From the NCBI RefSeq assembly GCF_006459125.1, contig NZ_CP041070.1, positions 2,914,001 through 2,978,000 on the forward strand: a stretch of 64,000 bases of DNA. Direction: 5' to 3'. Each line of letters begins with the position of its first letter. Positions within the stretch are counted from its first letter, which is position 1. This document shows, in pieces, positions 12,051-25,479 of the stretch. The DNA is from Halarcobacter anaerophilus (GTDB taxonomy: Bacteria > Campylobacterota > Campylobacteria > Campylobacterales > Arcobacteraceae). Below the pieces are notes generated by a model. That model ran no database searches and was not told the DNA's origin. It saw only the letters and a program-made list of their open reading frames with translations. Made by a program: the position numbers and the translations under genes.

Positions 12051-12078
12051 TTGAAATTAAGTTAATTTTAAATATAAT
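12051..12078 (+). promoter_or_regulatory. Sigma70 promoter of rpsU
   Basis: TTGAAA (12051-12056), a 16-bp AT-rich spacer and TATAAT (12073-12078), 36 bp before the rpsU start. Confidence 0.6.
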
Positions 12079-12114
12079 GTTTCCTCAAAATTTAAAAGAA
12101 AGAGGGTGATTTTA

Positions 12115-12327
12115 GTGCCAGGCATTAAAGTTAAAGATAGCGAATCTTTTGACGAAGCATACAGAAGGTTTAAGAAACAATGTGATAGAAATCTAATTGT
12201 TACTGAAACTAGAGCTAGAAGATTTTTTGAACCAATGACTGAAAAAAGAAAAAAACAAAAAATTAACGCTAGAAAAAAAATGCTTAAAAGATTATACATG
12301 CTTAGAAGATACGAATCTAGGCTGTAA
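12115..12327 (+). CDS. rpsU: 30S ribosomal protein S21
   Basis: A 70-residue S21, start taken at GTG 12115 (protein begins [19 protein letters not shown]). A GTG nine bases upstream is in frame, but 12115 gives the length and N-terminus typical of Campylobacterota S21 and has AGAGGGTGA at the right distance. The arginine/lysine-rich tail ([18 protein letters not shown]) is characteristic. S21 helps 16S rRNA and mRNA interaction during initiation on the small subunit. It stands alone between its own promoter and a strong terminator, beside the rRNA operons. Confidence 0.95.
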
Positions 12328-12379: not shown

Positions 12380-12602
12380 TATCTCCTTACATACCTTTAG
12401 AAATATAACTCTACATACATTTTCCATCCATAAAAGACTAAGCTAATAGGGATATTATATTCAAATAAGATTATAGGACAGAGAAGGGCAAAGAAAGAGG
12501 GATATAAAAGCTCTAAGCTGTTAAAAACTAAGATAAAACAATAATAAGCAAGAAGATTAAAAGAGAAAGACTAAAAAGGCATTGGAGGGAGAAAAAAAGG
12601 CT
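12380..12602 (-). other. Non-coding tail downstream of rrn copy 1
   Basis: About 220 bp of purine-rich DNA in the repeat, beyond the 5S terminator. No open frame is supported. On the minus strand it has two TATAAT boxes (12454-12459 and 12470-12475) and, at its very end, an AAGGAGAT ribosome site that in the other copy serves the spacer gene. Here no start codon follows that site. Confidence 0.6.
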
Positions 12603-12655
12603 AAAAAAAAAGCCTTGTCTTAGACAACTAAAAAAAGTTGAGAAAGATAAGGCTT
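12603..12655 (-). terminator. Terminator of rrn copy 1
   Basis: On the minus strand AAGCCTT...AAGGCTT forms the base of a long hairpin with an inner CAACT...AGTTG stem, followed by nine T. It lies 16 bp after the 5S 3' end. Confidence 0.85.
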
Positions 12656-12671
12656 AAAAATAAACTCAAGA

Positions 12672-12786
12672 GCTGGCAGCGGCTTACGTTTCCACTCCCG
12701 TAGGGAGCAGTATTATCAGCGCAGAGGTGCTTGACTTCCGGGTTCGGAATGGAGCCGGGTATTTCCACCTCGCTAAAACCACCAGC
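12672..12786 (-). rRNA. rrf: 5S ribosomal RNA (copy 1)
   Basis: About 115 nt. The ends GCTGG and CCAGC pair to close the molecule, and the inner segment has the familiar CCGAACCCGGAAGTCAAG-type loop. Ends are estimated to within a few bases. Confidence 0.93.
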
Positions 12787-12790
12787 AATA

Positions 12791-12831
12791 TGAGTAAAGA
12801 AACTATTTTTAATAATATATCTCTTTACTCA
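12791..12831 (-). other. 23S-5S spacer hairpin (copy 1)
   Basis: TGAGTAAAGA and TCTTTACTCA form a perfect 10-bp stem directly before the 5S 5' end, a likely processing signal. Confidence 0.5.
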
Positions 12832-12883
12832 CATCTTCTGAGTTCTTTAAATTAATGTTAAGTCTTTTGACACTCTTTTGAGT

Positions 12884-12909
12884 TTAACTCAATAAGATAG
12901 TAAACCAAG
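12884..12909 (-). other. 23S processing stalk, 3' side (copy 1)
   Basis: Nearly perfect complement of 15888-15912 on the other side of 23S (core TCAATAAGATAGTA). Together they form the stem normally cut by RNase III. Confidence 0.6.
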
Positions 12910-12920
12910 AAATTTATAAA

Positions 12921-15803
<2,883 letters not shown>

Positions 15804-16155
15804 CTCCTTTAAAAATTTTCATTTTTAAAGGGACCAATTTGAGAATAAAATAACTTTCGTTATTCTACCTTTTTTGAATAATTATTCCTTGGCTACTATC
15901 TTATTGAATTAACTTCAATAATATAGTTGTGTCTATCATGTTTTTACTATTTCTAGTAAATTTTAGATATGAAATTTTTTTGTTTTTTAAATCATCTTTA
16001 TACGAAAGATATTGATTTAAACGAAAAAATTAAAGACTTTAACATTATGTTTTTAAATATCACTTTGACTTTAAAAGTCAAATATAAATTCAACTTTTTT
16101 ATTGAACTTATATTTGATTTTTATTTCAAAACTCTTTTTCTTGATTTGTTATAGA
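15804..16155 (-). other. tRNA-Ala to 23S spacer (copy 1)
   Basis: About 350 bp of AT-rich transcribed spacer. It contains the 5' half of the 23S processing stem (15888-15912) and several small hairpins, such as AGAATAAC...GTTATTCT. A 61-codon frame on the other strand is not credible. Confidence 0.7.
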
Positions 16156-16231
16156 TGGTGGAGATAAGCGGGATCGAACCGCTGACCTCCTGCGTGCAAG
16201 GCAGGCGCTCTCCCAGCTGAGCTATATCCCC
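16156..16231 (-). tRNA. tRNA-Ala (TGC), copy 1
   Basis: 76 nt with an encoded 3' CCA. The anticodon loop CTTGCAC reads TGC, the D arm is AGCTCAGCTGGGAGAGC and the T arm GGTTCGATCCC. It is part of the rRNA precursor. Confidence 0.97.
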
Positions 16232-16268
16232 ATCTACTGGATAATCCTTCTATCAGATTATTTAATAA

Positions 16269-16345
16269 TGGTGGGCCTACCAGGACTTGAACCTGGGACC
16301 TCACGATTATCAGTCGAGCGCTCTAGCCAGCTGAGCTATAGGCCC
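16269..16345 (-). tRNA. tRNA-Ile (GAT), copy 1
   Basis: 77 nt with an encoded 3' CCA. The anticodon stem-loop CGACTGATAATCG reads GAT, with normal D and T arms. It lies between 16S and tRNA-Ala in the operon. Confidence 0.97.
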
Positions 16346-16371
16346 ATTCTCACCTATTTGTCTTAAATAAC

Positions 16372-16393
16372 CTTTATAAACCGAATATGATAA
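16372..16393 (-). other. 16S processing stalk, 3' side (copy 1)
   Basis: A 22-bp segment that is the exact inverse complement of 18078-18099 in the leader. The pair brackets 16S and forms the RNase III stem. Confidence 0.75.
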
Positions 16394-16450
16394 TTAATGC
16401 AATCTTTGATTGCTTTGGAGACTTAAAACGAATTAAGTCTCTCTTCTCTG

Positions 16451-17966
<1,516 letters not shown>

Positions 17967-18183
17967 AAAAAGTTTAATCTGACTTTGATTTATAATATCT
18001 TTCAATTACAAATTAAATCTCATTGTGTTATAGACAAGGATATATGTTTTACATTTATCCTGTTTCTTTATTCTTGTTTATCATATTCGGTTTATAAAGA
18101 TTACTTTCCTCTTAACAAACCTTCGTTTTTAAAGATCTTAATCTCTTTAGAACTTTGTGTCGTTCCTCTGAAATTGGACGGGA
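17967..18183 (-). other. rrn leader (copy 1)
   Basis: A 5' transcribed leader of about 215 nt. It holds a boxA-like GATCTTTAAAAA (about 18125-18137) and the 5' half of the 16S stalk (18078-18099). No coding potential is supported; an 86-codon frame on the plus strand is spurious. Confidence 0.6.
18078..18099 (-). other. 16S processing stalk, 5' side (copy 1)
   Basis: A 22-bp perfect complement of 16372-16393, forming the double-stranded stem that brackets the 16S precursor. Confidence 0.75.
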
Positions 18184-18212
18184 ATTATAATAGATTTTTT
18201 CCCCCTTGTCAA
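18184..18212 (-). promoter_or_regulatory. rrn promoter (copy 1), perfect sigma70 consensus
   Basis: On the minus strand TTGACA (18212-18207), a 17-bp spacer and TATAAT (18189-18184). Both hexamers match consensus and the spacer is optimal. A C/G-rich stretch (TCCCGTCC) follows the -10. Confidence 0.9.
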
Positions 18213-18246
18213 GAACTTTTCCTAAAATCTCGCTTAAATTTTTAAA

Positions 18247-18757
18247 ATTGTCGCATTTGGGCTACTTAAATAGTCCAAAAGTCCATAAAATAGACTTTTT
18301 CTTATTTAGATTAATACTTTAATTTCCAAGTTTAATGTTGTTTTCATCTAATTGAAAGTTTAATATATATACAAATAAGTTAAATATTGTAATTAAAGGG
18401 ACTTAAATATTAGTTATATTCAACAAATCATAATTTTAAACTCATATATTGTTTTGAACATCCCCAAAGAAAATCAGAACTCAAGAAACTACTTTATATT
18501 GTAAAAATTATAACCACTATTTGTAAGCATCAAATCATTGTTATGTTGTACAAAATCTTTTCTTATATTTCTATGTATAGAGTCATCTGATCGTTGAATA
18601 AGATTTTGTTCTAATAGTAAGTTCCAATGGAATAAAAATTCATCAAAAATTTTTTCTATCAAAGGATTAAATACTTGAGTATTAAGAAAATATGTTTCAT
18701 CCTCCACAAATTTAGCCAAGATTTCTTTTAGATAATCAGTTTTGATTGTTGCCATTG
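18247..18757. other. 511-bp unique spacer between the tandem rrn units
   Basis: The only DNA between the two repeat copies. It carries one small gene on the minus strand (18489-18755) and about 240 bp of AT-rich DNA between that gene and the copy 1 promoter. AAAGTC...GACTTT near 18277-18300 is a weak hairpin that could end the small gene's transcript. Confidence 0.8.
18489..18755 (-). CDS. Unknown 88-residue protein in the rrn spacer
   Basis: An 88-residue frame with ATG at 18755 and a good AAGGAGAT site. The ribosome site and everything upstream lie in the rRNA repeat, while the coding sequence is unique. The protein begins MATIKTDYLKEILAKFVED; the middle (FDEFLFHWNLLLEQNLIQ) and end (MLTNSGYNFYNI) resemble a small winged-helix layout of helix, 'L-x-x-x-x-LI' and 'LT-x-x-G-x-x-F', as in some phage or DUF2513-like proteins. 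That likeness is weak and I do not assign a family. Expression would need read-through of the rRNA terminator or a promoter in the repeat tail. It may be a remnant of a transferred gene. Confidence 0.6.
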   Translation of the reverse strand: MATIKTDYLKEILAKFVEDETYFLNTQVFNPLIEKIFDEFLFHWNLLLEQNLIQRSDDSIHRNIRKDFVQHNNDLMLTNSGYNFYNIK

Positions 18758-18980
18758 TATCTCCTTACATACCTTTAGAAATATAACTCTACATACATTT
18801 TCCATCCATAAAAGACTAAGCTAATAGGGATATTATATTCAAATAAGATTATAGGACAGAGAAGGGCAAAGAAAGAGGGATATAAAAGCTCTAAGCTGTT
18901 AAAAACTAAGATAAAACAATAATAAGCAAGAAGATTAAAAGAGAAAGACTAAAAAGGCATTGGAGGGAGAAAAAAAGGCT
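18758..18980 (-). other. Tail of rrn copy 2, upstream region of the spacer gene
   Basis: Non-coding. On the minus strand TATAAT boxes lie at 18848-18853 and 18832-18837, about 80-100 bp before the spacer gene, and are possible promoters for it. AAGGAGAT ends a few bases before its ATG. Confidence 0.5.
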
Positions 18981-19033
18981 AAAAAAAAAGCCTTGTCTTA
19001 GACAACTAAAAAAAGTTGAGAAAGATAAGGCTT
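18981..19033 (-). terminator. Terminator of rrn copy 2
   Basis: Same hairpin and nine-T run as at 12603-12655. It would shield the spacer gene from rRNA transcription. Confidence 0.85.
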
Positions 19034-19049
19034 AAAAATAAACTCAAGA

Positions 19050-19164
19050 GCTGGCAGCGGCTTACGTTTCCACTCCCGTAGGGAGCAGTATTATCAGCGC
19101 AGAGGTGCTTGACTTCCGGGTTCGGAATGGAGCCGGGTATTTCCACCTCGCTAAAACCACCAGC
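19050..19164 (-). rRNA. rrf: 5S ribosomal RNA (copy 2)
   Basis: Same sequence as 12672-12786, about 115 nt, closed by the GCTGG/CCAGC terminal stem. Confidence 0.93.
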
Positions 19165-19298
19165 AATATGAGTAAAGAAACTATTTTTAATAATATATCT
19201 CTTTACTCACATCTTCTGAGTTCTTTAAATTAATGTTAAGTCTTTTGACACTCTTTTGAGTTTAACTCAATAAGATAGTAAACCAAGAAATTTATAAA

Positions 19299-22181
<2,883 letters not shown>

Positions 22182-22533
22182 CTCCTTTAAAAATTTTCAT
22201 TTTTAAAGGGACCAATTTGAGAATAAAATAACTTTCGTTATTCTACCTTTTTTGAATAATTATTCCTTGGCTACTATCTTATTGAATTAACTTCAATAAT
22301 ATAGTTGTGTCTATCATGTTTTTACTATTTCTAGTAAATTTTAGATATGAAATTTTTTTGTTTTTTAAATCATCTTTATACGAAAGATATTGATTTAAAC
22401 GAAAAAATTAAAGACTTTAACATTATGTTTTTAAATATCACTTTGACTTTAAAAGTCAAATATAAATTCAACTTTTTTATTGAACTTATATTTGATTTTT
22501 ATTTCAAAACTCTTTTTCTTGATTTGTTATAGA
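22182..22533 (-). other. tRNA-Ala to 23S spacer (copy 2)
   Basis: About 350 bp, matching 15804-16155. Transcribed spacer with the 5' half of the 23S stalk; no gene. Confidence 0.7.
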
Positions 22534-22609
22534 TGGTGGAGATAAGCGGGATCGAACCGCTGACCTCCTGCGTGCAAGGCAGGCGCTCTCCCAGCTGAGC
22601 TATATCCCC
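22534..22609 (-). tRNA. tRNA-Ala (TGC), copy 2
   Basis: Same as 16156-16231; 76 nt, CCA encoded. Confidence 0.97.
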
Positions 22610-22646
22610 ATCTACTGGATAATCCTTCTATCAGATTATTTAATAA

Positions 22647-22723
22647 TGGTGGGCCTACCAGGACTTGAACCTGGGACCTCACGATTATCAGTCGAGCGCT
22701 CTAGCCAGCTGAGCTATAGGCCC
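22647..22723 (-). tRNA. tRNA-Ile (GAT), copy 2
   Basis: Same as 16269-16345; 77 nt, CCA encoded. Confidence 0.97.
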
Positions 22724-22828
22724 ATTCTCACCTATTTGTCTTAAATAACCTTTATAAACCGAATATGATAATTAATGCAATCTTTGATTGCTTTGGAGAC
22801 TTAAAACGAATTAAGTCTCTCTTCTCTG

Positions 22829-24344
<1,516 letters not shown>

Positions 24345-24783
24345 AAAAAGTTTAATCTGACTTTGATTTATAATATCTTTCAATTACAAATTAAATCTCA
24401 TTGTGTTATAGACAAGGATATATGTTTTACATTTATCCTGTTTCTTTATTCTTGTTTATCATATTCGGTTTATAAAGATTACTTTCCTCTTAACAAACCT
24501 TCGTTTTTAAAGATCTTAATCTCTTTAGAACTTTGTGTCGTTCCTCTGAAATTGGACGGGAATTATAATAGATTTTTTCCCCCTTGTCAAGAACTTTTCC
24601 TAAAATCTCGCTTAAATTTTTAAATTCTTTCGGCTCCCTCTTATATTCTTCTTTTTATAAGGGTTTTCTTATTTTTAACAATATTATTATACTCTAGTAT
24701 TTAATCTATAATCTAATTTATAATTTTAAAGTAAATATTAAGAGTAACATAATAAAATGTTACAAAAATTTGAAAGGATTAAA
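24345..24783. other. rrn copy 2 leader and divergent intergenic region
   Basis: Leader of rrn copy 2 (to 24561), its promoter, then about 190 bp before the BI-1 gene. TATAAT boxes on the plus strand at 24707-24712 and 24719-24724 are candidate promoters for that gene. No coding sequence is supported. Confidence 0.5.
24562..24590 (-). promoter_or_regulatory. rrn promoter (copy 2), perfect sigma70 consensus
   Basis: TTGACA-17 bp-TATAAT on the minus strand, as in copy 1. Sequence identity with copy 1 stops 34 bp upstream of the -35. Confidence 0.9.
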
Positions 24784-25479
24784 ATGTATAACAGAGATTA
24801 TCTTTCGCAAGAAACATCTCAATACAAAACTTCTGTTGACTCTTCAAGATCTGAGTTAATGAGCTTTTTAAAAGCGACTTATCAATTGTTTGCAGGCTCA
24901 TTATTGGCTGCAACAGCTGGGGCTTATATTGGTCTTGATATGGTTTCAACTATTGCAAGTTGGTATTGGGGATTAGTAATATTGGAGTTTGTTCTATTAT
25001 TTGCATTATACGCAGTAAAAAACAAACCTGGAATTAATTTAGCTGTATTATTTGGATTTACATTCCTTACAGGATTAACAATTACTCCACTTTTAAGCAC
25101 TATATTAGCAATGCCGGCAGGTGCTTCAATCGTAGCTCAAGCATTTCTAATGACTTCTGTTGCTTTTGGTGGTATCTCAATGTTTGCAATGACAACAAAA
25201 AAAGATTTTTCTGCAATGGGTAAAATGCTATTTATTGCGCTTATCATTTTAATTGTCGGTTCTATTTCAAACATTTTCTTCCAATCACCTCTTTTACAAC
25301 TAGCGATTGCAGGTGTTGGAGCATTGTTATTCTCTGCATTTATACTTTATGATACACAACAAATTATAAGAGGTGGATTTCAAACTCCAATTGAAGCGGC
25401 TATTGCTTTATATTTGGATTTCTTTAACCTTTTTGTATCATTATTACAAATTTTCGGTATTCTAAATAGCGATGAATAA
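24784..25479 (+). CDS. Bax inhibitor-1/YccA family membrane protein
   Basis: A 231-residue protein with about seven hydrophobic segments filling residues 35-228, the size and layout of BI-1/YccA/TMBIM proteins. The start is the ATG at 24784, with AAAGGATT upstream; an in-frame ATG at 24757 lacks a ribosome site. The C-terminal part has LYDTQQIIRGG and AIALYLDFFNLFVSLLQI, close to the family signature with its conserved Asp residues. Bacterial members are inner-membrane proteins tied to calcium leak or to FtsH regulation (YccA). It is alone, divergent from rrn copy 2, and ends in a strong terminator. Confidence 0.92.
   Translation: MYNRDYLSQETSQYKTSVDSSRSELMSFLKATYQLFAGSLLAATAGAYIGLDMVSTIASWYWGLVILEFVLLFALYAVKNKPGINLAVLFGFTFLTGLTITPLLSTILAMPAGASIVAQAFLMTSVAFGGISMFAMTTKKDFSAMGKMLFIALIILIVGSISNIFFQSPLLQLAIAGVGALLFSAFILYDTQQIIRGGFQTPIEAAIALYLDFFNLFVSLLQIFGILNSDE

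Follow-up and report, generated by a model that had tools for sequence, protein, structure and literature searches.

The window analysed here, a stretch of 64,000 nt from Halarcobacter anaerophilus (NZ_CP041070.1), carries two rRNA operons arranged in tandem on the minus strand. Each operon is one copy of an exact repeat of 5,867 bp with an offset of 6378 and zero mismatches, which consists of a 279-bp leader, the 16S gene, tRNA-Ile, tRNA-Ala, the 23S and 5S genes, and a 291-bp tail. The copies are separated by a unique spacer of 511 bp (18247-18757), the contents of which are an open reading frame of 88 codons, designated ORF88, and AT-rich DNA, designated S (Table 1). The genome contains four 5S genes in total and therefore four rRNA operons; the two outside the tandem pair are referred to as operons 3 and 4.

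Table 1. Coordinates of the features at the tandem rRNA operon locus (positions in the window)
Feature	Position	Strand	Remark
rpsU (ribosomal protein S21 gene), outer flank of copy 1	12106..12327	+	
AAGGAG of copy 1, identical to that of copy 2	12388-12383	-	followed by a 19-codon TTG frame into the rpsU terminator
rRNA operon copy 1	12380..18246	-	exact repeat
S, unique AT-rich DNA past the last homologous codon	18247..18500	.	directly upstream of the copy 1 leader; weak hairpin
ORF88, 3'-truncated gene of a phrog_585/DUF2513-like family	18489..18755	-	88 codons, ATG; homology stops at residue 85
AAGGAG ribosome-binding site (predicted), within the repeat	18766-18761	-	5 nt ahead of the ORF88 ATG
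rRNA operon copy 2 (leader, 16S, tRNA-Ile, tRNA-Ala, 23S, 5S, 291-bp tail)	18758..24624	-	exact repeat
Tail after 5S, copy 2	18758..19048	-	shared with the other two operons over the first 121 and 78 bp only
Predicted terminator hairpin followed by a U-run, directly 3' of 5S	18988..19033	-	between rRNA and ORF88
Ancestral upstream flank: 132-bp intergenic stretch and Bax1-I family gene	24625..25479	+	

Only two bases separate the start codon of ORF88 (18755-18753) from the repeat edge at 18758, and the AAGGAG motif lies inside the repeat, which bears out the preliminary description of an ATG that abuts the repeat boundary. The same description held that the identical ribosome site of copy 1 has no gene after it. 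This is a fair statement: the motif is followed after six bases by a first start codon, TTG, whose frame is only 19 codons long, and farther on a minus-strand ATG frame of 80 aa (12057-12299), which overlaps rpsU in antisense, gave no match to Pfam. When the mononucleotides of the spacer were shuffled 5,000 times, an open reading frame of at least 88 aa arose in only 10 cases. Counted over the two strands of the window (128,000 nt), there are 10 instances of AAGGAG at 4-9 nt from a following ATG, compared with a mean of 3.2 in five mononucleotide shuffles. At 24.6%, the GC content of ORF88 is below the 32.3% of the 26 genes of the window that served for comparison. Its codon score exceeds that of 1986 of 2000 shuffles, and just 3 of 104 gene segments score lower, although these segments come from the same 26 genes that trained the score, a yardstick generous to those genes. 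A shifted frame of the same DNA scores nearly as well (-0.045 versus -0.024), so that the codon pattern is intermediate and not clearly frame-specific.

The best homologue of ORF88 is a 127-residue protein of Malaciobacter halophilus DSM 18005 (G077; E 5.9e-12), with 38% identity (32 of 85 aligned positions) over residues 4-85 and with its start aligned to the start codon of ORF88. Two of the checks proposed in the preliminary description gave a clear homologue and only an intermediate codon pattern; the codon pattern alone would not prove a gene, and it is because of the homology that ORF88 can be taken as a genuine gene in origin rather than random sequence. ORF88 also matches the phrog_585 profile (E 2.6e-4, 22.3 bits) over positions 3-84 of 128, and the homologue matches it over positions 1-126 (E 4.6e-10). 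This profile comprises bacterial and archaeal virus proteins of unknown function; ORF88 has the same start but is without positions 85-128, and no phage genes were seen beside it. The likeness to DUF2513 (PF10711) runs through a full-length relative found with phrog_585 in the same bacterial family (L079), which scores 78.7 bits for that domain. ORF88 itself matched no Pfam family, and its best homologue scored 13.6 for DUF2513, under the gathering cut-off of 29.6. No publications were found in a literature search on DUF2513.

Full-length members of the family are about 126-128 aa long, and ORF88 falls short of this length because its match stops after profile position 84. As judged from these alignments, ORF88 is C-terminally truncated, without some 40 residues, and would be a remnant of the front two-thirds of a gene, a point missed by the preliminary description. 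With the ends of three homologues as queries, the missing C-terminus left no trace in the six frames of 18247-18520 beyond five residues already counted. Searches with ORF88 gave a best NCBIfam match of E 0.093 and solved structures at E 0.7 or worse, no family in PADLOC, and nothing among phages, plasmids, and viral contigs. AlphaFold2 models built from two-sequence alignments had mean pLDDT values of 50.0 and 41.8 and were unusable for fold comparison. Within 5 kb of the Malaciobacter halophilus homologue lie genes for an integrase and a NACHT protein, both above cut-offs, and from these neighbors ORF88 is taken as the front part of an accessory, perhaps mobile, gene. A small protein encoded nearby shows sub-threshold likeness to NikA, VirD1, and other families.

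Relatives of ORF88 are sparse. Among 104 genomes of the family, seven gave matches at E 0.01 or better, namely its own genome, G077, and five at 0.003-0.0075; the last five, of which four lie in frames measuring 255-774 aa and the fifth in a frame of 68 aa, were regarded as chance. The phrog_585 profile matched eight of the same 104 genomes, four of them clearly (G006, G017, G077, and G067, the last with one internal stop). The remaining matches were the genome of Halarcobacter anaerophilus (0.0018), three weak ones in frames of 305-563 aa, and a second weak place in G017. The interrupted relative in G067 (L082, C1:2655806-2656081) has a single in-frame TAG, and the phrog_585 family may decay in that genome too. 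When ORF88 was compared with 398 genomes drawn from the order, the one match at E 0.001 was its own genome; G077 is absent among these matches and was probably not drawn.

The possibility that ORF88 is a working small gene, a short but complete N-terminal version of the family that is translated from the site in the tail, was considered at this point. The frame is intact, the ribosome site and its spacing are good, the start is that of the homologue, and the shuffle test of the codon score is in its favor. Against it stand the missing family C-terminus, the low rank of the codon score among gene segments together with the nearly equal shifted frame, and the failure to find the short form in any genome but its own when 398 from the order were searched. 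The surroundings of the gene are also unfavorable. ORF88 sits past the predicted strong terminator of the operon, where a 91-nt stretch around the hairpin has a folding energy of -18.5 kcal/mol (z -4.5). A promoter scan of 18200-19060 gave two promoter-like sites (shuffle mean 4.6), one within ORF88 and one on the other strand, and none preceding ORF88. No Rfam match at E 1 was found in 18200-19048. A working short gene is accordingly judged very improbable, and ORF88 is probably no longer functional and represents junction debris.

The preliminary description had assigned all DNA upstream of ORF88 to the rRNA repeat, and this holds for the duplicated pair but not for the rRNA operons of the genome at large. 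Counted from the leader start, 5,612 bp are identical in operon 3, operon 4, and copy 2, and operons 3 and 4 then match the 291-bp tail over just its first 121 bp (96%) and 78 bp (95%), respectively. Because their share of the tail ends there, the 170 bp adjoining ORF88 are specific to the duplicated pair and not general rRNA-operon DNA. The good spacing of 5 nt and the agreement of the ATG with the start of the homologue suggest that the ribosome site and the gene may have arrived together, and the site described as borrowed from the repeat is indistinguishable from the gene's own.

Another source for the tail could be sought in the neighboring genes of relatives. Of the 15 other genomes of the genus, 8 (G054, G056, G057, G059, G060, G064, G067, and G068) have a transporter gene (Pfam CitMHS and Na_sulph_symp) next to the operon or to rpsU, and no ortholog is present in the Halarcobacter anaerophilus genome, where the best match has 29% identity. 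The ribosome site might then be a leftover transporter leader, with ORF88 having replaced the transporter at its start codon. Tail positions 121-279 do align along the operon-transporter gaps of G068 and G056, with scores that none and one, respectively, of 300 dinucleotide shuffles reached, but for the gaps of G057, G064, and G054 as many as 126, 30, and 110 of 300 shuffles, respectively, did as well. Moreover, the resemblance is not special when 135 genuine gene leaders, taken from the window and from related loci, serve as controls: with anchoring at the ATG, the numbers of these leaders scoring as well over 40 and 100 nt were 34 and 5 for G068, 35 and 39 for G067, and 98 and 61 for G056. 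The tail as the leader of a lost transporter was first adopted on the shuffles and was dropped once real leaders did as well; there is now only a very slight chance that it is correct.

In G068, G055, and G056, a single operon lies between rpsU and the Bax1-I gene. The 132-bp intergenic stretch on the Bax1-I side is 78-80% identical over 104-111 bp in G068, G056 (80%), and G067 (78%), and because relatives with one operon here share this flanking stretch, the pair has ancestral outer flanks and a new spacer. S is unlike the DNA that ancestrally lay upstream of the locus, and no source for it was found. Its matches elsewhere, in 73 of the 104 family genomes including its own, are short and AT-rich and were treated as chance, and no second copy of ORF88 or S was found elsewhere in the genome. 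The content between rpsU and the operon varies from genome to genome within the genus, and the interval is a high-turnover place. In G063, for instance, a nitrite/sulfite reductase-like gene lies between rpsU and the rRNA operon (L063, the only one of these loci assigned by Pfam), and a reductase-like gene occupies the same place in G061 (L064) and G062 (L072), judged by the likeness of their translations. In G067, about 37 kb with integrase and relaxase genes lie between rpsU and a 28-bp exact repeat of the rpsU end, and a further 22-bp repeat occurs inside these 37 kb (L095, C1:598500-618400; L069, L096). A 24-bp repeat (96%) of the rpsU end is also found about 26.5 kb away in G060 (L099). 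From such repeats, the 3' end of rpsU may serve as an attachment site for integrative elements.

These observations allow an origin in situ to be formulated. A full gene would have entered between the tail and rpsU, and the operon, tail, and gene would then have undergone tandem duplication; the duplication join would have truncated the inner gene, and the outer gene would have been lost through a deletion that began at its start and reached the rpsU terminator. The turnover of the interval, the resemblance of the rpsU end to an attachment site in G067 (with the integrase adjoining) and perhaps in G060, and the position of the homologue near integrase and NACHT genes all fit this course, and the identical 291-bp tails would be simply explained. 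However, a plain tandem duplication does not yield the spacer, as S is not ancestral upstream DNA and is sourceless, and a single copy of the rpsU end was found in the genome itself. This course of events is thus considered rather unlikely. That the tandem pair or its spacer was misjoined is a far more remote prospect still: perfect 5.9-kb repeats are an assembly hazard, but the genome is in one contig, and tandem pairs with short spacers occur in two other one-contig genomes of the genus, in one case at the same locus.

The comparison with these other tandem pairs bears on how the spacer formed. By 5S spacing, a tandem pair is present in three of five one-contig genus genomes, namely Halarcobacter anaerophilus, G067, and G068. 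In G067, two operons at the same locus are separated by a spacer of 725 bp, of which positions 1-445 match the downstream flank of operon L101 (90%) and also the L100 flank (82%), and positions 486-725 match the upstream flank of L101 (92%), a piece that contains the end of a pseudopilin-like gene. For positions 446-485, BLAST reported no match to L101, and the operon cores of L101 and the G067 pair differ (97.9-99.7% in two pieces). Because of this gap, the core differences, and the additional match to L100, the donor was apparently like L101 rather than L101 itself. The G067 pair resembles that of Halarcobacter anaerophilus in genus, locus, ancestral outer flanks, foreign inner spacer, and the presence of a gene fragment; the fragments differ, since the G067 spacer carries, on its upstream side, the end of a pseudopilin-like gene, whereas ORF88 lies on the downstream side and is the start of a gene of phrog_585 type. 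In the G068 pair, which stands at a different locus, a 250-bp piece of the spacer is an exact match to the DNA upstream of a third operon (L097); outside the tail, this upstream half was the only part for which another operon gave a match. Furthermore, a gene of 206 aa is complete next to operon 3 in the genome of Halarcobacter anaerophilus, and only its last 86 residues are encoded ahead of operon 4. As far as these alignments reach, operon addition with pieces of donor flanks seems recurrent in the genus. The G068 pair (L045 8901-9490) lies beside a tRNA-Thr gene, with 590 bp from the 5S gene of one operon to the next leader.

On this basis, the reading preferred here, and regarded as moderately probable, is that the spacer consists of the joined flanks of a donor operon and that ORF88 is the front of a gene caught at the join. 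A donor operon may have joined beside the resident one by recombination, bringing pieces of its own downstream and upstream flanks head to tail, so that the spacer would be the join of these flanks. The downstream flank would have supplied the tail, the ribosome site, and the gene start, and the upstream flank the AT-rich S, with a join near 18500 that severed the gene after codon 85. Because the two tails of the pair agree over 291 bp, farther than with operons 3 and 4, an extra step would be needed, by which the copy 1 tail came to match that of copy 2 to within two bases of the ATG and to abut the rpsU terminator. Possible routes are copying from copy 2 that happened to halt at that point and was completed by end-joining, and a deletion in copy 1 that took out the gene and reached as far as the rpsU terminator. 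The break at the gene start is a single observation noticed after the fact and carries little weight.

The preliminary description had offered capture in the spacer and loss from copy 1 side by side. Capture gains support by analogy from the G067 and G068 spacers, which derive from the flanks of other operons; with one genome of the species to compare, loss, or copying of the tail that stopped short of the gene, may instead account for the present state. Two operons stand in Halarcobacter anaerophilus where relatives have one, within outer flanks that are ancestral. Spacer pieces that match the two flanks of another operon were recognized in G067, and in G068 for the upstream side, but not in the Halarcobacter anaerophilus genome itself. 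The donor operon was looked for in that genome and not found, and the capture route is drawn by analogy for this reason. The absence of the transporter that neighbors the operon in several relatives counts against capture to the extent that some events at the locus must have gone unseen.

A search of the literature for tandem rRNA operons with recombination and a spacer returned nothing. A report on Bacillus anthracis describes a deletion between the operons rrnG and rrnH, attributed by its authors to unequal crossing over (PMC6208641). That case is alike in that rRNA operons act as exchange sites that alter the flanking DNA; it differs in being a large deletion, in contrast to the tandem pair and short spacer with a gene fragment at the present locus.

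As rRNA operons are maintained as identical copies, the route by which their number changes mostly leaves no visible trace. A gene start at the edge of the repeat is a possible record of the gain of an rRNA operon, in which the two flanks of the donor may still be preserved, joined, as the spacer. A broader proposal, put forward only tentatively, is that the rRNA operons of the genus are movable cassettes: an operon with its flanks could circularize, or do something equivalent, insert beside a resident operon, and so repeatedly drag in broken neighbor genes, among them ORF88 with its start and ribosome site intact. Comparison of spacers between close strains could separate circle insertion, unequal exchange, and copying as routes to a change in operon number.

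The gene that stands whole upstream of operon 3 (L038:11635-12255) is pseudopilin-like, with a sub-threshold match to GspH, and the truncated copy of its end at operon 4 occupies L039:11007-11282. Operons 3 and 4 have 558 bp of identical upstream DNA in common.
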